Below are positions 1 to 36,662 of a stretch of 47,909 nucleotides of DNA, in pieces (position 1 is the first letter of the stretch; each line of letters begins with the position of its first letter). The DNA lies in contig CAJXGD010000013.1 of assembly GCA_913053845.1 (NCBI GenBank), positions 1-47,909 of the forward strand. Reading direction: 5' to 3'. The DNA comes from an uncultured bacterium (GTDB taxonomy: Bacteria; Bipolaricaulota; Bipolaricaulia; RBG-16-55-9; DRJF01). The notes below the pieces were generated by a model. The model made no database searches. It worked only from the letters and a program-made list of their open reading frames with translations, and was not told where the DNA came from. Both the position numbers and the translations under genes were made by a program.

Positions 1-91
1 TTAAACTCTCGGGTGAACCTCCGTCGCTTGACTGCCACTCCTTGACCTCCTTCACTGAGATTGAAGCTTAACTCATTGTCTCAGTCAAGGG

Positions 92-502
92 GTGCAGTCC
101 AGTCTTGATACTTCGTTTTGCCGCTCCTTCGAATTTCACGTGACGAACCTAGAAGCAGAGTTTACACGTTCCGCAGAAGCATACTGTGGCGTAATCACGG
201 GCTTCGCAGAGTCCGAGGCAAAGATGTGGGAGCTTTGGGAGCACGATGAGGGTTTGAGAAAAGTACTCGGATCGGCAGCGGAGGTCGAGGCACAAGTAGC
301 TCTTGCATGTGTGTTGGAAGGTCCAGAGGCTTTTTACATAAAACATTTCGAGATGATTTCTTACGCGTCTCAACGTATGGGGTTCTCAGAGCGCGCTTTA
401 TTTGAAGGGTCGGCTCAACTTGGCCTTCCGAACCTTAGTTTTCCGAAACCGTACGTACGACAGTATTTGAGCAGGAGATTTGGGATCAGGTGTTCATCTT
501 AA
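92..502 (+). CDS. hypothetical protein, possibly an integron-cassette gene
   Basis: An open frame of 136 codons beginning with GTG. I do not recognise the protein. It is acidic and mostly helical-looking, with no signal peptide and no membrane segment. The start is uncertain: the purine run AAGGG directly abuts this GTG with no spacing, and an in-frame GTG exists 16 codons further in. An in-frame stop at 62 limits the gene on the left. It ends about 58 bases before a site that looks like an integron attC (561-618), so it could be the gene of a cassette. That is inference from context; no integrase is visible. Confidence 0.5.
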   Translation: MQSSLDTSFCRSFEFHVTNLEAEFTRSAEAYCGVITGFAESEAKMWELWEHDEGLRKVLGSAAEVEAQVALACVLEGPEAFYIKHFEMISYASQRMGFSERALFEGSAQLGLPNLSFPKPYVRQYLSRRFGIRCSS

Positions 503-560
503 CTCGTTCTGACGCTGAGTGCTTTCAATTCAGCAGCTTGTCTGTGACGGCTGCTTTGAC

Positions 561-618
561 ACCTACCCTCGCGCTGCAGCGGACGCGGTACCCGCGCGGC
601 TGAGCTTGGGCGTTAGAT
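561..618 (+). repeat. attC-like integron recombination site
   Basis: The 58-base stretch ends in the core GTTAGAT (612-618, pattern GTTRRRY), preceded by GCGCGGCTGAGCTTGGGC, which resembles the right half of classical aadA/aadB attC sites. The left half carries GCGCTGCAGCGGACGCGG. The two halves fold on each other: GCTGCAGC on the left against GCTGAGC on the right, leaving one unpaired base, as in the extrahelical bases of attC sites. The apex is CGCGG-TAC-CCGCG. The left core (ACCTACC) departs from RYYYAAC by one base. Recognition is by eye. Confidence 0.55.
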
Positions 619-640
619 ACAACGGAAGGTGGTTATCGTG

Positions 641-1195
641 ATGACGAAGAAGTGGCAATCGTATGAGGAACTTGCCGCATACCTACTCAACCGATTTGCC
701 AAGGAATTCGGCTTAAAGCGTGTCGAAGGGAAACAGAAGGTTCCTGGACGACGTAGCGGAACCGACTGGGAGATTGACGCGAAGGGAGTTCGAGAGAACA
801 ACGAGGGATTTGTGATAGTCGAATGCCGACGCTATACAACATTAAAGCAGAACCAGGAGAAATTGGGTAGCCTGGCGTATCGGATGATTGATACAGGTGC
901 GAATGGCGGCATCATGGTCAGTCCGCTGGGCATTCAGGAGGGTGCAGCTAAGATTGCAGCATCGGAAAACATCTGTAACGTCCAACTGGATGCAGATAGT
1001 ACTCCTCAGAAGTTCGCTATGCAATTTCTTAACAAGATCATGGCTGGTGTCTCTGAGACCATCCGCCTGTCTGACAGCCTGTCGTGTGAACTCATTTGCA
1101 CGTGTAAACAATGCGGTGAAAGATTCACTGTGAAGGGAAACGGAGCACTGTGCCCCGTCTGTGCTGAACAAATCAGGTCAGAGGGTAGTGCCTAA
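641..1195 (+). CDS. restriction-endonuclease-like (Mrr/PD-(D/E)xK) protein with zinc ribbon
   Basis: A 184-residue protein. The N-terminal half has the layout of Mrr-type restriction endonuclease folds: a helix, then GTDWEIDAKG, then FVIVECRRY about 15 residues later. This matches D...(E)xK with an altered last residue, followed by a helix and GGIMVSPLGIQEGA. The C-terminal 40 residues carry CTCKQC...CPVC, a zinc-ribbon pattern. The ATG at 641 is chosen because AAGGTGG (626-632) lies 8 bases ahead; the longer frame from a GTG at 629 would begin inside that ribosome binding site. The gene lies between two attC-like sites, so it may be a mobile cassette. Type IV restriction or DNA repair is possible; substrate unknown. 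The missing lysine in the catalytic motif leaves nuclease activity open. Confidence 0.6.
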   Translation: MTKKWQSYEELAAYLLNRFAKEFGLKRVEGKQKVPGRRSGTDWEIDAKGVRENNEGFVIVECRRYTTLKQNQEKLGSLAYRMIDTGANGGIMVSPLGIQEGAAKIAASENICNVQLDADSTPQKFAMQFLNKIMAGVSETIRLSDSLSCELICTCKQCGERFTVKGNGALCPVCAEQIRSEGSA

Positions 1196-1276
1196 CCAGG
1201 CGCTGCACCGGACCGCGCTATAGCGCGCGCTAAATCGAGTCCGGTTTGGCATTTGTAAGTTGGTTCTTTGTTAGAT
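1189..1276 (+). repeat. second, degenerate attC-like site
   Basis: It starts at the end of the nuclease gene with GCCTAAC (RYYYAAC pattern) followed by CAGGCGCTGCACCGGACCGCG, close in sequence to the left half of the site at 561. ACCGGAC pairs with GTCCGGT downstream, with a CG-rich apex between. The distal half no longer matches well, but a core-like GTTAGAT sits at 1270-1276. A further GCGGCTGAGCT identical to the first site occurs near 1297-1307. This may be a composite or decayed site. Confidence 0.4.
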
Positions 1277-1355
1277 TACACTGTGCAAGAGCCGCGTGGC
1301 GGCTGAGCTCATGGGGCAAACGTCGGCAAAGTAGTCCCGCGTGGAGGCGAGTTAA

Positions 1356-3431
1356 GTGGAGTATAACGCAGAGCTGGGTCTCGAACTGCTCCGCCTAGGT
1401 ACTGGCCTTCCGAGCGCGCGGTTTCGCGAAGGTCAGGAGAATGCCATCCGCTACATCGTGGAGGGGCGCGGCCGGTTGCTCGTGGTTCAAAAGACCGGAT
1501 GGGGTAAGAGCTTCGTCTACTTCATCGCGACGAAGTTGCTGCGTGAGGCGGGGATGGGTCCGGCTTTGCTCATCTCCCCGTTGCTTGCTCTCATGCGCAA
1601 TCAGATCGCGGCAGCACAGCGGATGGGAGTGCGTGCTGTCACCATCAACTCCGATAACAGGGAGGTTTGGGAGAGCGTCGAGGACCGGCTCTGCCGGGAT
1701 GAGGTGGACGTGCTTCTCATTTCACCGGAGCGGCTTGCCAACGAACGTTTTCGGGTTGAGCTCCTCGCGAGCATCGCCGAACGCATTGCGCTCCTGGTGA
1801 TCGACGAGGCCCACTGCATCTCCGATTGGGGTCATGACTTCCGTCCCCACTACCGGCTGATCGAACGGATCTCTCGGATGTTGCCTGCCAATCTCCGGCT
1901 GCTCGCCACAACCGCGACTGCCAATAATCGGGTGATGGACGACCTGCAGACGGTGCTCGGTCCTGATCTCAAGGTACTGCGGGGAGATCTGCACCGACCG
2001 TCGCTCAGGCTCCAGACGATGCGGCTGCCGAGCCAGGCGGAGCGCTTGGCTTGGCTGGCTGAGCAGGTGCCGCTGCTCCCGGGTCATGGGATCATCTATG
2101 TGCTGACGGTCCGCGATGCAGTACAGGTGGCCGATTGGCTCAAGTCACGGGGGCTGGAGGTGGAGTCCTACACCGGCCAGACGGGAGATCGCCGAGAGGT
2201 GCTCGAGCAGGCGCTGCTTGAGAATCGCCTCAAGGCGCTCGTCGCGACAACGGCCCTCGGCATGGGCTTCGACAAGCCGGACCTCAGCTTCGTGATTCAC
2301 TACCAGACACCGGGCTCGGTGGTGGCCTACTACCAGCAGGTGGGGCGAGCGGGGCGAGCGTTGGACGCTGCCTACGGAGTGCTGCTCAGCGGCGAGGAAG
2401 AGACCGATATCACGGACTATTTCATCGAGAGTGCCTTCCCAACGAAGGATGAGGTCCGGCAGGTGATTGCCGCCCTGGAGAGCGTAGCCCGAGGTCTCTC
2501 TATCCCGGAGCTCCTTGCTGCGGTCAATCTTAGCAAGGGACACATCGAGAAAACGATCGCGTTGCTTTCGCTCGAGTCGCCCGCCCCGGTTGTGAAACAA
2601 GGGTCGAAGTGGCAGTTGACCGCGGCGAGCCTGAGCGACGAGTTCTGGGAGCGAGCAAGACGCCTCACCGAGCTCCGGCACGGGGAGCAGCAGCAGATGC
2701 AGGAATACGTTAATCTCGATTCGGGGCACATGGAGTTCCTCGTCCATGCACTGGATGGAGATCCTGCGACGGTACAGCATCCTGACTTGCCGCCACTTCC
2801 CACCACCACGGACGCGGCGGTTGTGCAGGAGGCGGTAAGATTTCTACGCCGCACCAGCCTACCCATCGAGCCGCGCAGGCAGTGGCCCATGGGCGGTATG
2901 CCGCAGTACGCGATCAGGGGGCGCATTCCAGTGGAGCTCCGGGCGGAGCCCGGCAAAGCCCTCTGCGTCTGGGGCGACGCCGGGTTGGGTGATCTCGTTC
3001 GACGCGGCAAGTATCACGATGGCCGTTTCGCGAAGGGGCTGGTCGAGGCCTGCGTTGCGTTGGTGCAGGAGTGGGATCCGCAACCGGCACCGGTCTGGGT
3101 AACCGCTATCCCGTCGCGGCGGCACCCAGCGCTAGTTCCGGAATTCGCCCAGCGACTGGCAGCGCGCCTTGGGTTGCCGTTCCATCCTGCGCTTGAAAGG
3201 ACGGATGACCGTCCTGAGCAGAAGGCGATGGCTAACAGAACTCAGCAGGCGCGGAACGTCGACGGATCGTTTGCCGTTGGCATGCAACCGTTTCCCCCAG
3301 GGGCAGTGTTGCTCGTGGATGACATGGTCGATTCGCGCTGGACGTTGACCGTTGGCGCCTGGCTGCTGCGCTCTCACGGCTGCGGAGAAGTGTGGCCTCT
3401 CGCAGTTGCCTTCGCAGGTTACGGCAGATGA
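1356..3431 (+). CDS. RecQ-like helicase fused to phosphoribosyltransferase domain (RqlH/PsyrT-like)
   Basis: A 691-residue protein. Helicase motifs in order: Q-like FREGQ (23-27); Walker A GWGKS (48-52); [25 protein letters not shown] around residue 149; TTATAN; and QQVGRAGR with [12 protein letters not shown] before it. The C-terminal about 150 residues form a type I phosphoribosyltransferase-like domain, with a PRPP-binding-like [13 protein letters not shown] loop near residue 651. A RecQ-PRTase fusion followed by a DprA-like gene is the architecture of E. coli RqlH/RqlI and of the PsyrTA toxin-antitoxin phage-defence pair, where the helicase fusion is the toxin. GTG start with GGAGG (1343-1347) 8 bases upstream. 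Its stop overlaps the next start (ATGA), implying coupled translation. Function here is inferred from architecture. Confidence 0.85.
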
Positions 3432-4432
3432 GGAACGAGCTCTCCCCCAATACACAAGCGATCCTGCTGCTGACGGCACCGTTGATTGTGGGGCGTGGCA
3501 AGGCTTCAGTGGCCCCGCTGAGCGCGGGTGAATACAAGCGCCTTGCACGTCGGCTCGTAGATATCCGGCGTGAGCCCGCCGATCTGCTGGGTCTGGGGGC
3601 CGATGAAGTCCTGAAGGAATGCCGACTCGACCTCGATGGCACGCGGGTCGAGCGTCTACTCGGGCGTGGATTCCTGCTCAGCCAGGCAGTGGAACACTGG
3701 CAGGCCAGGAAGATCTGGCTGGTCAGCCGTGCGGATGCTGAGTACCCACAGCGGATCAAGCAGCGTCTCGGTGAAAACGCCCCGCCGGTGTTCTACGGCT
3801 GCGGGGATGCTGCGATCCTGGATACGGGAGGACTCGCGGTCGTCGGGTCCCGGCATGTGGATGATGAGCTGATCGAGTACACCGAACGCGTCGGTCAACT
3901 TGCCGCTGCTGCGCGGCGTACGATCGTGTCCGGCGGCGCCCGAGGGATCGACCAGGCGGCGATGCGCGGTGCGCTGGAAGCTGGTGGGAAGACGGCGGGG
4001 GTCCTGGCCAACGGGCTCGAGCGGGAGGCTATGGCCCGCGAGCACCGAGAAGCGCTGATGGACGGAGGACTGATCTTGATCTCCCCCTACGACCCCGCGG
4101 CGCGGTTCCATGTGGGGCACGCGATGCAACGCAACAAATTGATCTACGCGCTGGCGGATGCGGCTCTGGTCGTCAACTCCGACTGCGGAAAAGGGGGCAC
4201 CTGGGCTGGTGCCGTCGAGCAATTGAAGCAGCGGGGCTTCGTGCCGATCTACACGCGTTCCAACGGAGAGATCGGAAAGGGTTTGGAGGCACTTCGCCGT
4301 AAGGGTGCACGAGCATGGCCGAACCCTGAGACACCAGAGGAGTTCGAGCGAGTGCTGGGCGCACCGACGCCCTCGCAAGCGGACGCCTCACCACAGCTAA
4401 GTCTCTTCTCGCGCACGGAGCCGATGGCATGA
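3428..4432 (+). CDS. DprA/Smf-like protein (RqlI/PsyrA-like antitoxin partner)
   Basis: 334 residues from the ATG at 3428, which overlaps the stop of the helicase gene as ATGA; the frame is open further upstream but that would only lengthen the overlap. The Rossmann-like DprA/Smf core is recognisable: [28 protein letters not shown], a nucleotide-binding-like [26 protein letters not shown] and [13 protein letters not shown]. Classical DprA binds single-stranded DNA and loads RecA. In the RqlHI/PsyrTA pairs the DprA-like partner restrains the helicase fusion. The tight coupling here argues for that role rather than for competence. Family assignment is firm; the antitoxin role is inference. Confidence 0.82.
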
Positions 4433-20309: not shown

Positions 20310-21517
20310 GTCAAATCGCGCAAGCTCAGTACGAGCAAATGGTGGATGCCTTGGCAGTTGGAGGCGATGAAGGGCGTGGTAGGCTGCGATAAGCCACGGG
20401 GAGCCGCCGAGCAGGCACTGATCCGTGGATGCCCGAATGGGGTAACCCACCTCGATGGAGTCGAGGTATCTGGGGCCGAACTGAGTAGGCCCTAGAAGCG
20501 AACCCGGGGAAGTGAAGCATCTCAGTACCCGGAGGAAGAGAAATCAACAGAGATTCCCTAAGTAGCGGCGAGCGAACGGGGAAGAGCCCAAACCTCAGGT
20601 GCGTGATAGGCTGCATCCGTTGTTCCTGAGGGGTTGTAAGCAGTTCCATCTCGGTCATGCAGGACCGAGCAGGGTTACAAGTAAAGCCTAGCCAAACGGC
20701 CAGCAAAGTCACTGGAACGGGCGACCATAGAGGGTGATAGTCCCGTAGGCGAAAGGCCAAGCTACCCTGGGGATTTGCTTGAGTAGCGTCGGACCCCAGA
20801 AATCCGGCGTGAAACCGGGAGGACCACTCTCCCAAGGCTAAATACTCCCAACTGACCGATAGTGGACTAGTACCGCGAGGGAAAGGTGAAAAGAACCCCG
20901 GAAGGGGAGTGAAATAGAGCCTGAAACCATTTGCTCACAGACAGTGGGAGGGCCCAGATCTCCTACCATAGCACGGGCAAAACTCCTTCGGGAGTGGCAC
21001 CCAGCGCTATTGGAGTTCGGCCTGACCGCATGCCTTTTGCAGTATGATCCGGCGAGTTATCTTAGGTGGCAAGGTTAAGCCGCGAGGTGGAGCCGCAGCG
21101 AAAGCGAGTCTGAATAGGGCGCTTTAGTCACCTGGGATAGACCCGAAGCCAGGCGAACTATCCATGGCCAGGTTGAAGCCTATGTAACAGTAGGTGAAGG
21201 ACCGAACCCGTAGAGGAGGAAAACTCTTGGGATGAGCTGTGGATAGCGGTGAAAAGCCAGACGAGTCCTGGTGATAGCTGGTTCTCCCTGAAATAGCTTT
21301 AGGGCTAGCCTCACGCACCGAAGCGCACGGGGGTAGAGCGACCGAATGGATGCGGGGCAACCCTATTCCAACCGAACTCCGAATACCGTGCGTGAATCCG
21401 TGAGAGTCAGACGGTGGGGAATAACTCCATCGTCGAGAGGGAAACAACCCAGACCGCCAGCTAAGGCCTCAAAATCCGGGCTAAGTGGGAAAGGATGTGC
21501 GATTGCTTAGACAGCTG

Positions 21518-21567
<50 letters not shown>

Positions 21568-22073
21568 CAGTCGAGCGGTTGTGCGCCGAAGATTTAACGG
21601 GGCTCAAGCCCGGTGCCGAAGCTGCGGGTTGGTCAGGTCTCTTCGGGGACCAGGCCAGCGGTAAGGGAGCGTTCCGCCATAGGATGAAACCGGTCCGTAA
21701 GGGTCGGCGGACGAAGCGGAAGTGAGAATGCCGGAATGAGTAGCGCGAGCTGAGCGAGAAACTCAGCCACCGAATGCCTAAGGTTTCCTGGGGAAGGCTT
21801 ATCCTCCCAGGGTAAGGCGGTCCTAAGTTGAACCCGAAAGGGGCAGGCGATGGATAGCCGGTTAATATTCCGGCCCCTCTCTTTAGGCGTTGACCACGGG
21901 GTGACGCCGCAGGTCGGGACGAGCGGGCGGACGGAAGTGCCCGTCCAAGCGTCAAGGCGTCGGGCTCTAGGCAAATCCGGAGCCCGGTTAAGTCGAGGCG
22001 TGATGGGGAGCTGCTACGGCGGCGAAGGAAGTCTGATCAGCGGCCAAGAAAAACCTCTAGGGAGCCTAGGAGA

Positions 22074-22105
<32 letters not shown>

Positions 22106-22366
22106 GCGAGTAGCCTCAGGTGGGCGAGATAACCCTCGTTAAGGAACTCGGCAAAATAATCCCGTACGTTCGCAATAAGGGATGCCTCTCTCGCGAGAGA
22201 GGGGCCGCAGAGGATAGGCTCTGGCGACTGTTTAGTAAAAACACAGCTCCCTGCCAACCCGAAAGGGGATGTATAGGGAGTGAAACCTGCCCACTGCTGG
22301 AAGGTCAAGGGGAGGGGTGCAAGCTCTAAACTGAAGCCCCAGTGAAGGGCGGCGGTAACTATAACC

Positions 22367-22406
<40 letters not shown>

Positions 22407-22710
22407 GTGCATGAATGGTCCAACGACTGGAGCGCTGTCTCAACGAGGGGCTCGGCGAATTTGAAGCACCGGTGAAAACGCCGGTGACCCACGGCAGGAC
22501 GGAAAGACCCCGTGGAGCTTTACTGGAGTTTGGTCTTGAGTCTTGGCGTCTATTGTGTAGGATAGGTGGGAGCCTATGAAGCCGGGGCGTTAGCCTCGGT
22601 GGAGGCGTCCTTGAAATACCACCCTGTAGGCGTTATGGCTCTAACCGATTCGCCGTGAAGAGCGGCGATGGGACAGGGCTAAGCGGACAGTTTGACTGGG
22701 GTGGTCGCCT

Positions 22711-23670
22711 CAAATGTGGGGCGCTCTGGCGGCAACGTCAGAGGCAAATCTGGCTGTATGCTGGGAAATCCGTTTTGCAGGCGCCAGCTGTGCCGTTATC
22801 CAGTTGGCAGCCGAGCAAGTGTAGTATTTGGCACTACCAAGCGAAAGTCGCTTGGTGAAAAGGTGACCAATGCGGATAATCAGCAGGGAAGTCAGGGAAG
22901 AAAATCCCTTGACCCCTCAACGACTGCACGCCAGACATCCCACTGGGATGATGATACAGTCTGAACTTCCAGGCGACTGGAAGCCGGATAGTTCGGGGTT
23001 TGGTCGTTCTGAAGGAGCAAATCGTACTATGCGATCCAATGAGATCGAAGAGTACAAGAAAGGCTTGAAGCTTACTGAAGAGCAACGAGCAGTGCTGATC
23101 GGTCTAATGCTGGGCGACGCTCATCTTGAGACGCAGAACCAAGGTCGTACCTATCGCCTCAAGATCGAGCAGAGTGAGGCACATTGTGCCTACGTTAGAC
23201 ACCTTTACCGGCTGTTCGCTGAGTGGGTGCGAACCCCCCCTCAGGCCAAGAGGGTGACAAGCCGAGGTCATGTCAGTCGCAACTGGTGGTTTCAAACTTT
23301 GAGTCACAGCGCTTTCCGCTTCTATGCCCAACAGTTTTATCGGGAGGGGCGGAAACAGGTGCCAAAGTTGATCCATCGTTGGTTAAGTCCTCGTGCGTTA
23401 GCCTACTGGTACATGGATGATGGCTCGGTGAAATCGGCGCAGTCGAAGGGCGTGTTGCTCAATACCCAAAGCTTCAGCCTGAGTGAAGTGGAGCGCCTTT
23501 GCCAGGTACTTCAGGAGAAGTACTGCTTGAAGGTCAAGTCGCGCAAGCAACGCTCAGGTTATCAGATCTACATCTCGGGTGACTCATACGAGACGTTACG
23601 CGATCTGATTGAGCCTTATCTCATTGCAGAGATGCATTACAAGCTCCCGACGGCCAGACAAACACAATTG
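22711..23670 (+). mobile_element. group I intron in 23S rRNA, 960 nt
   Basis: The exons join as GGTCGCCT/CCTAAAAGGTAACGG, matching the E. coli sequence around U2262 by my count from the P-loop. The 5' exon ends in U and the intron ends in G, the group I rule. P1: exon CGCCT pairs with guide GGGCG (22719-22723) with a U-G pair at the splice site. P7: GACTG (22922-22926) with CAGTC (22957-22961). P8: CATCCC (22936-22941) with GGGATG (22945-22950). The core (P, Q, R, S elements) lies at roughly 22860-22965; the endonuclease ORF fills the 3' part. Confidence 0.85.
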
Positions 23671-23682
23671 CCTAAAAGGTAA
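23029..23682 (+). CDS. LAGLIDADG homing endonuclease of the 23S intron
   Basis: 217 residues from the ATG at 23029, with AAGGAG 11 bases upstream; the frame is open back to 22870 but that part is intron core. Two LAGLIDADG motifs: [12 protein letters not shown] (residues 23-34) and [11 protein letters not shown] (about 124-134), so it should act as a monomer that cleaves intronless 23S genes at the insertion site. Related to the LAGLIDADG_2 type found in organellar and bacterial rRNA introns. The frame runs across the 3' splice site: the last three codons and the TAA lie in exon 2 (CCTAAAAGGTAA). It can therefore be translated whole only from unspliced RNA. Confidence 0.88.
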
Positions 23683-23834
23683 CGGAGGCGTACAAAGGTC
23701 CGCTCAGGCCGGTTGGCGATCGGCCGTGGAGTGCAAGGGCACAAGCGGGCTTGACTGCGAGACCGACGGGTCGAGCAGGAGCGAAAGCTGGTCCTAGTGA
23801 CCCGGTGGTGCTGCGTGGAAAGGCCATCGATCAT

Positions 23835-23865
<31 letters not shown>

Positions 23866-24323
23866 AGTACCGCCCGAGAGTTCACATCGACGGCGGTGTT
23901 CGGCACCTCGATGTCGGCTCACCTCATCCTGGGGCTGAAGCAGGTCCCAAGGGTCCGTCTGTTCGCCGGTTAAAGAGGTACGCGAGCTGGGTTTAAACCG
24001 TCGTAAGACAGGTTGGTCCATATCCGCCGTGGGCGTAGGAGACTTGAGGGGCACTCTTCCTAGTACGAGAGGACCGGAAGGGCTAGACCGCTGGTCTACC
24101 AGTCGTCCCGCCAGGGGCGCCGCTGGGTAGCTATGTCTGGAAAGGATAAGCGCTGAAGGCATCTAAGCGCGAAGCCCACCCCAAGATTAGGTCTCCAGGG
24201 TCCAAGCGCCTTCGGGCGCGCGGACCGAGAGGTCCCTGCGAGAATAGCAGGTAGATAGGCCGCAGGTGGAAGCGCAGTAATGCGTGCAGCCGAGCGGTAC
24301 TAATCGACCGATCGCTTGCGCGA

Positions 24324-24386: not shown

Positions 24387-24504
24387 CCAGGTGGCCCAAT
24401 GGCGGAGGGGAAACACCCGATCCCATACCGAACTCGGTAGTTAAGCCCTCCAGCGCCGATGGTACTGGCCTCGCGAGGGGTTGGGAGAGTAGGACGCCGC
24501 CTGG
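24387..24504 (+). rRNA. rrf: 5S ribosomal RNA
   Basis: 118 nt. The terminal helix pairs CCAGG (24387-24391) with CCTGG (24500-24504). Conserved 5S text includes CCCATACCGAACTCGGTAGTTAAG and CGCCGATGGTACTG, as well as GAGAGTAGGACGCCGCC. It lies 64 nt after 23S in the same transcript. Confidence 0.95.
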
Positions 24505-24517
24505 TTTTTCTTTTCCT
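24495..24517 (+). terminator. T-rich end of the rRNA unit
   Basis: The GC-rich 3' strand of the 5S closing helix is followed directly by TTTTTCTTTTCCTCTT (24505-24520), which should stop transcription right after 5S. Confidence 0.5.
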
Positions 24518-32076: not shown

Positions 32077-33075
32077 GTGTATACGCTGGGCATCGAGAGC
32101 TCCTGCGACGAGACTGCCGCGGCGGTGCTGCGCGGCGAGCGCGAGCTGCTCTCCAACGTAGTTTATTCCCAGATCAAGCTGCATCGGCCCTACGGCGGCG
32201 TCGTCCCCGAAGTGGCCTCACGCGATCACCTGCAAAAACTCCCCGGCGTGATAGAGCAGAGTTTGCAGCAGGCCCAGGTGAGCCTGCGCCAAATAGAGCT
32301 GATCGGCGTCACTTATGGCCCAGGCTTGATGGGCTGCCTGCTGGTGGGTCTTTCTTATGCCAAAGCGCTGGCCTATGGTCTAAAAAAACCCTTCATCGGC
32401 GTCAATCATCTGGAGGGTCATCTGTTCGCCCATTATCTGGAGCATCCGGAGGCCCCGCCGCCCTTCATCGCCCTGCTGGTCTCCGGCGGCCACACTGCGC
32501 TGATCTACGTGAAAACCTACGGCGATTATGAGCTGCTGGGGCAGACGCGCGACGACGCGGCCGGTGAGGCCTTTGACAAGGTAGGCAAGCTGCTGGGCCT
32601 GCCCTATCCGGCCGGAGCGGAGATAGACAAGTTGGCCAGGGAGGGTAATGCTCAAGCCGTAGCATTTCCGCGACCGATGCTGGCTTCGGGCAACTACCAG
32701 TTCAGCTTCTCCGGACTGAAGACGGCGCTGGCGCTCTACCTGCGCGCTCACCCGAAGCAAGAGCTGCGGGCTGACGTGGCCGCTTCTTTTCAGGAGGCGC
32801 TCATTGACGTCTTGGTGAAAAAGACCCTGCGGGCGGCCCAAGACAAAGGCGTAAGGCAGGTCGTCGTCGTCGGGGGAGTGGCGGCCAACTCCCGGCTGCG
32901 CCGACGCCTGCTCCAAGCTGGTCAACAGTTGGAGGTGGCGGTCAGCTTTCCCTCGCCGGCACTGTGCGGCGATAACGCGGCCATGATCGCCGCGGCAGCA
33001 TATTTCAACTACCGGCAGGGCCGGCGCTCGGAACTGAGCCAGACGCCGGAGCCAGCGCTGGAATTGGCCGGGTAG
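32077..33075 (+). CDS. tsaD: tRNA N6-threonylcarbamoyladenosine synthase catalytic subunit TsaD
   Basis: 332 residues from a GTG. ASKHA fold with the metal-binding HLEGHLFAHYL (two histidines), N-terminal LGIESSCDETAAAV, GLMGCLLVGLSYAKALA, LVSGGHTALIYV, RDDAAGEAFDKVGKLLGLPYP, and VVGGVAANSRLRRRL. It transfers the threonylcarbamoyl group to A37 of ANN-decoding tRNAs. Complete length. Confidence 0.95.
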   Translation: MYTLGIESSCDETAAAVLRGERELLSNVVYSQIKLHRPYGGVVPEVASRDHLQKLPGVIEQSLQQAQVSLRQIELIGVTYGPGLMGCLLVGLSYAKALAYGLKKPFIGVNHLEGHLFAHYLEHPEAPPPFIALLVSGGHTALIYVKTYGDYELLGQTRDDAAGEAFDKVGKLLGLPYPAGAEIDKLAREGNAQAVAFPRPMLASGNYQFSFSGLKTALALYLRAHPKQELRADVAASFQEALIDVLVKKTLRAAQDKGVRQVVVVGGVAANSRLRRRLLQAGQQLEVAVSFPSPALCGDNAAMIAAAAYFNYRQGRRSELSQTPEPALELAG

Positions 33076-33092
33076 CTAAGGAGGAGATGCAG

Positions 33093-33134
33093 ATGAAGTT
33101 AAAGCTGTTGGGCCTGGCCCTATCGTGGGGCTGA
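33093..33134 (+). pseudogene. leftover start of a secreted-protein gene
   Basis: AAGGAGG right after tsaD precedes an ATG at 33093. It reads MKLKLLGLALSWG and stops. In the next frame the text continues IVGLSVSRVVEWLR, so it looks like a signal peptide broken by a frameshift and truncated. The body of the gene is missing. Confidence 0.4.
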
Positions 33135-33230
33135 GCGTGAGTCGAGTGGTAGAATGGTTGAGATAGGGATCGAACAAAGAACCAACCTTGAGCTGCTAAC
33201 TATGCCAGCCAAAGGGGAGGAGGATTTCAC

Positions 33231-34109
33231 ATGCGTAGCTGCAAGCTTTTCGCAGTAGGTGTGGTCTTGGTCTTGGTGGCCTTGGCTGCGGGAAACAGCG
33301 GACAGGCTCAGACGCCGCCGCCGGGGATGGCGCTGATCCCGGCGGGCAACTTTCAGATGGGGGACAGCTTCAACGAGGGCGGCTCCGACGAGCGACCGGT
33401 GCGCACGGTGTTCGTGAGCGCGTTTTCCATGGACCAGTTCGAGGTGACCAAGACCTTGTGGGACGAGGTGGCGGAGTGGGCAGCGGCTAACGGGTACGAC
33501 ATCGGGCCGGGAGATGGTTCTGGTAAGGCAGGGAGCCATCCTGTCATCAACGTCTCGTGGTACGAAGCGGTGAAGTGGGCCAATGCGCGCAGCGAGAAGG
33601 AAGGGCTGATGCCGTGCTACTACACGGACAGTGGGCAGACCCAGATGTACCGGACGGGGAGGGTGAACGTGAAGAGTGGCTGGGTGAAGTGGAACGAGGA
33701 CTGTTACCGGCTGCCGACGGAGGCGGAGTGGGAGAAGGCGGCGCGCGGGGGCGTGGAGGGGCATCGCTACCCGTGGAGTGATACGGATGAGTTCGATTCC
33801 TCGCGGGCGAACTGCGACGCTAGTAGAGGGGGGACGACTCCGGTAGGGTCGTTTGCGCCTAATGGGTATGGGATGTTTGACATGGCGGGGAACGTATGGG
33901 AGTGGGTGTGGGATTGGAAAAGCCCAGAATTGCCTGATGGGATCGACCCGCGTGGGCCGGCGTCGGGCTCGTTCCGCGTAAGGCGCGGCGGCGGTTGGCT
34001 CAGCTTCGCGATCGACTGCCGCGTCGCCAATCGCATCCTCTACTCGCCCGGCAACGGGAGCATCAACCTGGGCTTCCGCCTGGTGAGGGCAGTGTCGTCC
34101 TTGCCGTAA
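33231..34109 (+). CDS. DGR target: secreted FGE-sulfatase/C-type-lectin-fold variable protein
   Basis: 292 residues. The signal peptide (hydrophobic stretch up to about residue 20) has likely cleavage after GQAQ. The rest is a formylglycine-generating-enzyme-like (SUMF1) domain: GMALIPAGNFQMGDSF, FSMDQFEVTKTLWDEV, HPVINVSWYEAVKWAN, YRLPTEAEWEKAARGG, PNGYGMFDMAGNVWEWV and FRVRRGGGW. In diversity-generating retroelements this C-type-lectin fold carries the hypervariable ligand-binding face at its C terminus. Here residues 259-286 are the variable repeat; F259, D262, I269, L270, Y271, G276, S277 and I278 replace template-encoded residues (seven Asn and one Glu). A strong GGAGGAGG precedes the ATG. 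Expected outside the cytoplasmic membrane. Confidence 0.88.
   Translation: MRSCKLFAVGVVLVLVALAAGNSGQAQTPPPGMALIPAGNFQMGDSFNEGGSDERPVRTVFVSAFSMDQFEVTKTLWDEVAEWAAANGYDIGPGDGSGKAGSHPVINVSWYEAVKWANARSEKEGLMPCYYTDSGQTQMYRTGRVNVKSGWVKWNEDCYRLPTEAEWEKAARGGVEGHRYPWSDTDEFDSSRANCDASRGGTTPVGSFAPNGYGMFDMAGNVWEWVWDWKSPELPDGIDPRGPASGSFRVRRGGGWLSFAIDCRVANRILYSPGNGSINLGFRLVRAVSSLP
34005..34087 (+). repeat. DGR variable repeat (VR)
   Basis: 83 bases at the 3' end of the target gene, 132 bases upstream of the matching template repeat. Ten positions differ from the template (34005, 34006, 34014, 34036, 34038, 34039, 34041, 34057, 34060, 34063), every one an adenine in the template. Its 3' end, CTGGGCTTCCGCCTGGTGAG, is identical in both and would be the homing-initiation segment. 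Confidence 0.9.
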
Positions 34110-34455
34110 GGGTATTCGCGAAGGGGGCCCTTTCTTAACGCGATCAACTGCCGCGTCGCCAATCGCAACAACAACTCGCCCGGCAACGAGAACAACAACC
34201 TGGGCTTCCGCCTGGTGAGCACAACGCACGGCAAGGACGCGCTGTCCCATCCACGGCTGCCCGTGCCCCGCGGAAGCGGGGACGAACATGGCCAACCCGA
34301 GGGGGCAAGTACCCCGACGCGTAAGGGGTCGGGGGAACGCCCCGGCGGGCTTGCCTTGCGGCGATTCAAGACAGGCTGAAAACGTGAAACCGCGGCGCGA
34401 GCGCCTCCGGGGAGTGGATCCACAATAAAGGCCGAGCCATATAGGAAATCTCGGT
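34110..34455 (+). ncRNA. candidate TR RNA and spacer region, no RT gene
   Basis: The 346-base gap between the variable protein and the metallopeptidase gene holds the near-palindrome AAGGGGGCCCTT (34120-34131) before the TR, the TR itself, and then two strong hairpins. CCCCGC-GGAA-GCGGGG lies at 34266-34281 (GNRA loop, extended by CGT/ACG). CCCCGAC-9-GTCGGGG lies at 34312-34334. Structured RNA after the TR is needed for priming in studied DGRs. No reverse transcriptase or Avd reading frame is present here on either strand. RNA ends are not defined. Confidence 0.5.
34137..34219 (+). repeat. DGR template repeat (TR)
   Basis: 83 bases, beginning 27 nt after the target gene's stop codon. It contains 23 adenines, mostly as AAC codons lined up in the reading frame of the target (three AAC in a row twice), the usual design because A-mutagenesis of AAC yields many residues but no stop. 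Ten adenines differ from the VR; 60 of 60 other bases agree. Confidence 0.9.
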
Positions 34456-34812
34456 TTACAGACCGATGCGCCGCACACCCGCCTCGTCGAAGCCGAAATA
34501 ATGGCCGATCTCGTGCATCACCGTCTGGCGCACCTGCTCCATAATCTGCTGCTCGCCCTGGCAAATAGCCTCAATATTGCGCTGATAGATGGAGATAACG
34601 TCCGGATAGGGATAGGCATTCCAAACGCTGCGCTGCGAGCGTGGCACCCCCTGATAGAGACCCAAGAGCAGTTGGCCGGGGTGTTCATCTGCCAGATCGG
34701 GCGGGGGCAGATCTTCAACTATGATAGCTACGTTCTCCAGTTTAGCGCGGAAGAACTGCGGCAAGGCGGCCACCGCCTGCTCGACCAGTTCGGTGAACCG
34801 TTCGCTGGTCAT
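34456..34812 (-). CDS. small zincin-like metallopeptidase
   Basis: 118 residues of the minimal MMP-like family. The zinc motif HEIGHYFGFDE sits near the C terminus (HExxHxxGxxD), with PYPDVISIYQRNIE as the preceding edge strand. Cytoplasmic, substrate unknown. It is the last gene of the panB-panE-tig-clpP run, 12 bases after clpP. A chaperone-protease context hints at protein quality control (inference). Confidence 0.85.
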   Translation of the reverse strand: MTSERFTELVEQAVAALPQFFRAKLENVAIIVEDLPPPDLADEHPGQLLLGLYQGVPRSQRSVWNAYPYPDVISIYQRNIEAICQGEQQIMEQVRQTVMHEIGHYFGFDEAGVRRIGL

Positions 34813-34824
34813 GGCTGGCCGGTA

Positions 34825-35442
34825 TTAGCCGCTGGCCGGCGGCTCGGCCTTGCGCGAGCCGATGATCTCGTCAATTAGACCATATTCAAGAGCTTCTTGG
34901 GCGCTCATGAAGAAGTCGCGGTCGGTGTCCTTCTCGATCCGCTCCAGCGATTGACCGGTGTGGTGCACCAGCAACTGGTTGATGCGCTCACGCGCCTTGA
35001 GCAGCTCCTCGGCATGGATCTTGACATCGGAGGCCTGTCCTTGTGCGGCGCCCAGCGGCTGATGCATGTGGATGCGCGAGTTGGGCAGCGCCAGCCGTTT
35101 GCCCTTGGTGCCCGCGGTCAGCAGGATGGTGGCCATGCTAGCCGCTTGGCCGATACAGATCGTCGAGACCTCAGAGCGTATATACTGCAAGGTGTCGTAG
35201 ATCGCCAGGCCGGCGGTGATCACCCCGCCCGGACTGTTAATGAAAAGCTGAATATCTCGCTCCGGGTCCTTGGAGTCCAAAAAGAGCAACTGGGCGACCA
35301 CCAAGTTGGCCGTATGATCTTCAATGGGACCTTGCACGAAGACAATGCGATCTTCCAACAAACGAGAATAGATGTCATAAGTGCGCTCATATTGACCGGT
35401 GCGATCTATCACGAAAGGTATCTGCAAACGCTCAGCACTCAC
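34825..35442 (-). CDS. clpP: ATP-dependent Clp protease proteolytic subunit
   Basis: 205 residues, complete. Catalytic Ser in [11 protein letters not shown], His in RIHMHQPLG, Asp in TDRDFFMS. N-terminal loop [19 protein letters not shown] and [20 protein letters not shown] are typical. Starts with GTG overlapping the trigger factor stop (GTGA), so translation of the two is coupled. No clpX lies in this window. Confidence 0.95.
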
Positions 35443-36662
35443 GATTGTTCCCCCTCATCGGCTGCATCATCGGCCTTGATGATCTTCGCTTTCTCCAGCA
35501 ACAACTCCAGCGCTCGCTCATCGTTCTGCGTCGCCCGCAGCCCCTCCAGCCGTCCTTCGCGTTCCAGCAACGCCTTGAACTTGATGGGGTTCATCTGTTG
35601 ACTCTGGGCCTGCTCCTTGAGGTAGGCCTCAAACTCCTCATCGCTGAGCTTGAGCCCTTCTTGCTCCTCAATGGCTTCCAGCACCCGTTGGCGCTTGAGC
35701 TGTGCGCGGATGGACTCTTTGAATTCGGTCAGCTCCGCCTCCTCGAGCTGCTGCTCATCGGCCCGTTGGAGCTCGGCCTGAGCCAATTGGTCCACCAGGC
35801 GCGTAGGGATAGGCACCTCCGACTTGGCAATGACCGCATCGAGCACGGCGCGCTTGAGCGCCGCCTGCCGCGCTTGCTCGTGCTCATGCTCCAATTCCTG
35901 ATGCACCTGAGCCACCAGCTCCGTGGCGCCGTCATGGCCCAAGGTCTGGGCCAGGTCGTCCAAGTCCGGCCGCTCGATCCGCTCGATGGCCACGATCTCC
36001 AGCGGCCCTTCCATCTGGTCCAAGGGCAAGCGGACAACATCGCCGATCAGGTGGCCGAGCAACGCCGCACTAAAATGTTCCGGGCGCGCCTGCAACTGAT
36101 AGGTATCACCGTGCCCCGGCCGCCGAACCCGCACCATGTCCTCGACCTCCACCTTGGCTCCTGGCTGATCCTTAGGTACCAGAGTAGCGTTTTGTAAGCG
36201 CAATTCCTCCAGCTCATTGTCAATCTCGGTCTGGCTCACCGGCTCAAGGGGCAGATCGGGCACCTCGAGGCCAGCATAGTCTGCCACCACCGGCCGAGGG
36301 AATATCTCCAGCTTGGCCGAGAATCGGAAAGGCTGACCGCTGCTAAACTCCTTGGTCTCCGTCTCCGGGGGCACGATCGGTTGCAGTTCAGCCTCTTGCA
36401 GGACCTCCGGCAGCACTTGGCCGATCAGCTCTCGTTGGACATCTTCGGCGAGAAAGTCCTCGCCAAAGCGGGCTTCGATCAGGCTGCGCGGGACATGCCC
36501 GCGGCGAAAACCGGGCAACTCGATCTCGCGGACCGCCTGGCGATAGCTCTCTTCCAGTTTGCGCTTAACCTGCTCGGCCGGGACGGTCACCTGCACCAGA
36601 TATTCGGTGTCGCTTAGCTTTTCGACGCTGTGCTCCACTTGAGTGCTTTCTTCTAAGCTCAT
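35439..36662 (-). CDS. tig: trigger factor
   Basis: 407 residues. Ribosome-binding N domain with the [17 protein letters not shown] signature, a shortened central region where the FKBP prolyl-isomerase domain sits ([16 protein letters not shown] to about residue 225), and a long helical C-terminal chaperone domain. Binds nascent chains at the ribosome exit tunnel. The tig-clpP order is widespread in bacteria. The PPIase part looks reduced or diverged compared with E. coli (432 residues). Confidence 0.9.

Follow-up and report, generated by a model that had tools for sequence, protein, structure and literature searches.

A probably disabled diversity-generating retroelement in a Bipolaricaulota genome that keeps its target gene and template repeat

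Introduction

Diversity-generating retroelements (DGRs) act by mutagenic retrohoming, in which an adenine-mutated cDNA of a template RNA replaces the 3′ end of a gene. Efficient homing in BPP-1 depends on a hairpin that follows the VR, the rewritten part of the gene, and the hairpins described for phage DGRs have GC-rich stems of 7–10 bp with a GRNA loop (PMC3240598). Loci without their machinery have been described as well. Strains of Treponema denticola that do not have the core DGR still carry left-behind target genes (PMC4891356). In Nostoc sp. PCC 7120, all3226 shows remnant homology between template repeat (TR) and VR with no reverse transcriptase (RT) gene nearby, which its authors link to removal of the diversification components (PMC7517822). 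Some of the degenerate loci of Thiohalocapsa PB-PSB1 are described as having RT-bearing variants in the same population (PMC10907252). RT-less DGR remnants are already in print (PMC7517822, PMC10907252), and the locus considered here adds one more. Among the papers listed on Acetothermia or Bipolaricaulota we found no mention of DGRs, which is no proof of their absence from print; the main text of PMC8144416 names neither group.

The locus lies in an uncultured bacterium of the Bipolaricaulota. We analysed a stretch of 47,909 nucleotides, called the window below, which is an entire contig (C13), so that the locus is not interrupted by a contig end. The source assembly holds 2,309,948 bases in 91 contigs and is 90.6% complete.

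Results

A gene for a variable protein is followed, on the same strand, by a repeat of its own 3′ end (Table 1). The two copies align over 83 nt without a gap and differ at 10 positions. All 10 fall on the 23 adenines of the TR, and none on its 60 remaining positions. The chance of such a confinement to adenine is 4.7e-7, or 6.3e-6 without the first two positions. These are the counts of the original prediction, which realignment returned unchanged; the substitutions that it had described as A to T, G, and C number six, three, and one. When we scanned the plus strand of the window for direct pairs, 55 nt or longer, whose mismatches (five or more) all fall at one template base, this was the sole adenine-confined pair, and for template C, G, and T there was none. 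The 10 changes alter codons 259, 262, 269–271, and 276–278 of the target in frame, adenine changes can turn no TR codon into a stop, and among the 27 whole codons of the TR, 9 are AAC. In nine comparisons with other FGE genes, each at its 3′ end, the window TR had 5 to 15 mismatches at 58–60 non-adenine positions, as against 0 of 60 for the VR beside it; it is thus the cognate TR of this target.

Table 1. Features of the locus, in positions of the window
Feature	Positions	Strand	Remarks
Target (variable protein) gene	33231..34109	+	PF03781, E 4.6e-55; 292 aa, FGE-sulfatase/C-type-lectin family
VR	34005..34087	+	Ungapped alignment to TR; in frame, 8 changed codons
Spacer, target stop codon to TR	34110..34136		27 nt; holds the putative deletion junction
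TR	34137..34219	+	23 adenines; 5′ end truncated relative to G044 (at least 21 nt) and to G031 and G065 (39 nt)
TR 3′ flank	34220..34280	+	57/61 identical to the G044 TR flank
Hairpin CCCCGC-GGAA-GCGGGG	34266..34281	+	After TR, not after VR; 6-bp stem

The target open reading frame is intact over its 292 codons. It had been predicted to encode an FGE/C-type-lectin protein, and both the PF03781 match and the best solved relative agree with this. That relative, variable protein 1 of T. denticola (TvpA; 2y3c), aligns through the VR with an E of 3.5e-33. By sequence, then, the target combines a C-type-lectin/FGE fold with a VR at the 3′ end of its gene. Its hydrophobic N terminus, judged by eye, looks like a signal peptide. 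An AlphaFold model built on 66 sequences has a pTM of 0.76 but is poor over much of the VR, with pLDDT below 50 at residues 229–270. Nine named records hold a related target: four are Candidatus Acetothermia or Bipolaricaulota metagenome-assembled genomes (MAGs), one is a Thermotoga sp. MAG, two are uncultured bacteria, and two belong to one delta proteobacterium. Among viral contigs there was one partial relative, at 60%.

The gene after the locus is, as predicted, a metallopeptidase on the opposite strand (zincin-like, PF06262, 34456–34812, minus strand). Viewed more widely (33075–36662), the target sits between tsaD and a zincin–clpP–tig cluster. Of 18 further genomes of the order that were searched, 16 have a clpP match. 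In these, trigger factor and clpP occur together, and neither the FGE nor the zincin gene was found within about 1.5 kb of clpP; the order therefore offers no empty site for comparison. A scan of 33000–34500 returned no promoter-like site and two terminator-like sites, both on the minus strand and at about chance level. Elsewhere in the window, a 23S rRNA gene of about 4.0 kb (20318–24323, plus strand) contains a group I intron (Rfam RF00028) with its core at 22701–22983 and a LAGLIDADG endonuclease frame at 22870–23682 (PF03161). A 5S rRNA follows at 24387–24505, and 16S rRNA had no match within the window.

The machinery of a DGR is missing from the locus. The absence of an RT nearby, part of the original prediction, was borne out by a profile search of the window with RVT_1 (PF00078), which gave no match; nor were traces of an HRDC or RT gene found there by tblastn (best E 0.07). 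The same profile recovered the DGR RTs of two related genomes, G031 and G065, and the RT fragment of a third, G044, and it matched in 21 of the 100 genomes of the class. Across the source assembly it had a single match, on contig C85. We rejected this RT as a DGR RT: it lies beside cas1 (TIGR00287), a cas2-like frame and a CRISPR array (the latter two identified by eye), and it is nearest to group II RTs (6ar1, 2e-44, as against only 6e-14 for 8ub7, presumably the Bordetella phage DGR RT). Positions 1–4074 of locus L008 on C85 hold, in order, the array, a stand-alone RT gene, cas1, and the cas2-like frame, and they look like an RT-associated CRISPR adaptation locus. A DGR-type RT was found neither in the window nor in the rest of the 90.6% complete assembly.

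The accessory genes gave a similar result. HRDC had one match in the assembly, in a 691-aa frame on contig C1, and none in a gene of accessory size. Its one Avd-like PF05635 match, on contig C55, was set aside as a DGR accessory, as the surrounding 15 kb hold no adenine-only repeat pair. The genome-wide search for a DGR-type RT and further VR/TR pairs that had been suggested with the prediction thus came down to one CRISPR-linked RVT_1 match and no second copy of this TR; besides the locus itself, the TR hit one FGE gene at 73%, together with matches of 16–27 nt. A second FGE gene of the genome (contig C17, match at 1501–1605 of L003) has a 3′ end that resembles the window TR. It was rejected as a live remote target, with mismatches at 14 of 23 adenines but also at 9 of 60 other positions; it is possibly an old one.

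What such a locus can look like when complete is seen in other genomes of the class. TR and flank together had matches in 8 of 100 class genomes at E 1e-5: the window's own, G013, G001, G044, G065, G031, G024, and G059. In G013, G001, G024, and G059 the match falls within an FGE gene, and in the stretches examined no TR was found beside it; we do not read the adenine enrichment of these genes as demonstrating that a DGR once acted on them. G059 has one adenine-only pair, of 46 nt with three mismatches, outside its FGE gene. With the G031 RT as the query, 15 of 100 class genomes matched at E 1e-5. The matches in G031 and G065 stand at 100% (rounded), that in G044 at 52%, and the rest at 27–34%. 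The cassettes of G031 and G065 run in the order target, HRDC (PF00570), RT, TR, with the RT start overlapping the HRDC stop in G031. The best solved match of the G031 RT is 8ub7 (1.2e-43; the next is 2.8e-17). The 126-nt TRs of the two genomes are identical, and between the RTs a single residue of 334 differs. Over 2204 aligned positions the cassettes show 28 differences, of which 19 lie within the 126-nt VR, 15 at TR adenines and 4 at other sites. Compared with its TR, the G031 VR differs at 14 of 31 adenines and the G065 VR at 18 of 31, each with two non-adenine mismatches. Identical TRs, near-identical RTs, and differences concentrated in the VR, mostly at TR adenines, indicate that the class has harboured an active HRDC-type cassette of this kind.

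In the third relative, G044, an intact HRDC gene is followed by a 137-codon RT frame (L024 1093–1506) and a TR longer than the window's. The RT frame matches only residues 144–273 of the 334-residue G031 RT, and the VR has mismatches at 18 of 28 adenines and 3 of 71 other positions over 99 nt, or six non-adenine mismatches over 108 nt. With its short RT frame and these non-adenine mismatches, the DGR of G044 looks decayed too, and for longer; it would be a second decaying DGR of the class, or an assembly fault. The three cassettes share with the window the target family and the kind of TR. They differ in what lies between, as G031 and G065 hold full-length HRDC and RT genes and G044 an HRDC gene with a partial RT frame, whereas the window has neither gene.

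Alignment with G044 also shows where the window departs from these cassettes. The window TR starts abruptly at 34137. To the right of this point, the two genomes agree at 75 of 83 TR positions and in most of the flank (Table 1), so that TR and flank are 92% identical, as against 75% for the target gene outside the VR (249 of 334 positions). The window VR fits the 21 extra TR nucleotides of G044 except at three positions. In the G044 TR each of these three is an adenine, a pattern that suggests that the window VR was at one time templated by a longer TR. The distance from VR start to TR start is 132 nt in the window and 1737 nt in G031. Among 80 RT-bearing viral loci examined, 62 had an adenine-only pair, and in 61 of these the distance was at least 482 nt; the exception is L115, where the TR of the best pair lies upstream. 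The TR 3′ flank is likely to be the spacer of the template RNA. TR and flank folded no better than shuffled sequences in four of four foldings.

Hairpins were examined in the same viral loci. A GRNA-loop hairpin lies within 80 nt after the VR in 24 of 62 viral DGRs with a stem of at least 7 bp and in 27 of 62 with at least 6 bp, in none of the 62 after the TR, and in 1 of 1240 random stretches of the same loci. In the window, 34080–34136 contains no perfect stem of 6 bp or more, and a GRNA hairpin downstream of the VR is thus missing. The sole plus-strand GRNA-loop hairpin of the window with a stem of at least 6 bp is the one after the TR (Table 1). G044 does have such a hairpin after its VR, CCCTGCGC-GGGA-GCGCAGGG. 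G031 has no hairpin there, and G065 has one with a different loop; 3′ of its VR there are 56 extra nucleotides with a 9-bp hairpin, absent from G031. The feature is not universal, and because G031 and G065 are also without it, the hairpin test is weak as evidence against activity.

One related sequence bears on whether the VR of the window is still changing. The 90% cluster of the target has three members, and its representative, P0002, the one that we compared, is 288/292 identical. Of the four differences, S66F and D236G lie outside the VR, and N267S and I269V lie inside it, both on TR-adenine codons. P0002 keeps the same residue at seven of the eight changed codons, and for this reason the window VR looks fixed rather than hypervariable. 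The comparison of a related VR with the TR that the original prediction had proposed thus gave a divided answer, as what does differ within the VR falls on TR-adenine codons. The two proteins would suggest one shared diversification event, followed by two point changes or by a little later activity, as late DGR action could also produce N267S and I269V. The agreement of VR and TR at all non-adenine positions would allow DGR activity until recently or even now. Among the 119 HRDC relatives and the best 120 of 6066 RT relatives, none lies on a contig of 12,615 nt, the length of the P0002 contig; this is a weak test because each cluster is represented by its longest contig only.

Discussion

We consider it probable that the locus is a disabled DGR, whose HRDC and RT genes were lost, probably in one deletion that also took the 5′ end of the TR, and whose target is now frozen. 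It keeps a cognate VR/TR pair, it is missing its RT, and it has intact relatives, as would be expected of a degenerate DGR. An intact HRDC-type cassette would once have stood here, its VR rewritten by mutagenic retrohoming. A deletion of roughly 1.6 kb, if sized from the layout of G031, would then have removed HRDC, RT, and the 5′ end of the TR, and the target would since have persisted as a secreted protein that no longer varies and probably binds a ligand. The original prediction had offered two alternatives, an RT elsewhere that serves the cassette in trans and loss of the RT from the system. Its assignment of the locus to the DGRs and its observation that no RT is nearby both stand. The second alternative gains support from G031 and G065, whose HRDC and RT genes are flanked by target and TR, and from the shortened 5′ end of the window TR; the first has found little support. 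On the best reading, the deletion is recent. It is deduced from relatives that belong to another family of the class, since the window's own family (f1) is otherwise absent from the set.

An extension of this reading would be that DGRs of the phylum are repeatedly silenced by deletion of the RT after a useful variant has arisen, with the target and even the template and its flank kept. Under it, the window, where HRDC and RT are gone, and G044, with its RT of 137 codons, would be two separate events around a TR and flank that have diverged less than the target gene outside the VR. We hold this broader idea only tentatively and think it rather unlikely.

Several other explanations could, in principle, account for the locus. 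First, the RT-less junction may be an assembly error, or a structural variant of a population whose other cells keep the complete cassette. The genome is an assembly of many contigs, RT-less and RT-bearing versions of one DGR locus are reported to coexist in Thiohalocapsa (PMC10907252), and the sequence at 34110–34137 may be an assembly join rather than a deletion. The junction, however, does not fall within sequence that is repeated in the VR, and the two repeats are both present and separated by unique sequence; a collapse of repeats is disfavoured because it would have cost one copy. That none of the HRDC and RT relatives compared could be placed on the contig of P0002 argues weakly in the same direction. 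We therefore regard this explanation as unlikely.

Second, the VR may still be diversified in trans, by an RT and an accessory protein that come from the unassembled part of the genome, a phage, or a plasmid and use the RNA of this TR. The incompleteness of the assembly leaves room for such genes, the VR and TR still agree at 60 of 60 non-adenine positions, both VR differences of P0002 lie on TR-adenine codons, and trans service has been inferred for some RT-less loci of Thiohalocapsa (PMC10907252). Against this, neither a DGR RT nor an accessory-sized HRDC gene was found in the assembly, where the only RVT_1 match is CRISPR-linked and the only HRDC match is the large frame on C1. Moreover, no second TR copy was found in the genome, the TR of the window is cut at its 5′ end, and no GRNA hairpin follows the VR, although the last point applies to G031 and G065 likewise. 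Outside the genome, one TR-core and one flank pattern occurred in 0 viral contigs (exact matches only), and plasmids gave no match. Diversification in trans thus seems quite improbable.

Finally, we think it very unlikely that the locus is a simple duplication that picked up substitutions by chance, or that it reflects ordinary selection acting on a repeated motif. FGE genes of the class without a detected TR likewise vary more at TR adenines than at other positions (compared with the window TR, Fisher p 0.00007 to 0.09), and some enrichment may therefore come from protein-level variability alone. However, the nine other 3′ ends all carry non-adenine mismatches to this TR whereas the window VR has none (p 4.7e-7), and similar plus-strand pairs for the other three template bases are absent.

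Thus, the loss of HRDC and RT by deletion seems the most probable origin of what is, in effect, an orphan VR/TR pair whose missing part relatives help to place. Surveys of DGRs that are anchored on the RT would, we suggest, overlook loci of this kind. A VR that proves fixed in sequencing reads would make the locus a clear example of a binder that evolved by diversification and was then frozen. Mixed bases confined to template adenines would speak for service in trans or for cells that carry the RT. The ligand of the target, once named, would reveal what was being selected by the DGR among these bacteria.

Among described systems, the HRDC-type DGR of T. denticola is close (PMC4891356). Its HRDC accessory gene overlaps the RT gene, as in G031, and its target is an FGE/C-type-lectin protein with the VR at the 3′ end, as in the window. 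The order of parts differs, as the accessory gene of T. denticola is described as lying between TR and RT, whereas G031 has target, HRDC, RT, and TR in succession. The remnants differ as well: those described for T. denticola have neither RT nor TR (PMC4891356), whereas the window keeps target and TR and is without HRDC and RT. Like the window, Nostoc all3226 shows TR–VR homology with no RT gene nearby; Nostoc, however, has two other DGRs (PMC7517822), whereas no other was found in the assembly of the window, and it is in the window that relatives allow the missing segment to be placed. In the degenerate loci of Thiohalocapsa PB-PSB1, as here, the machinery is missing or broken. For two of those loci, activity in trans is supported by another locus with a matching TR (PMC10907252); for the window, none was found, and its relatives instead point to a cassette that once held its own HRDC and RT genes between target and template.
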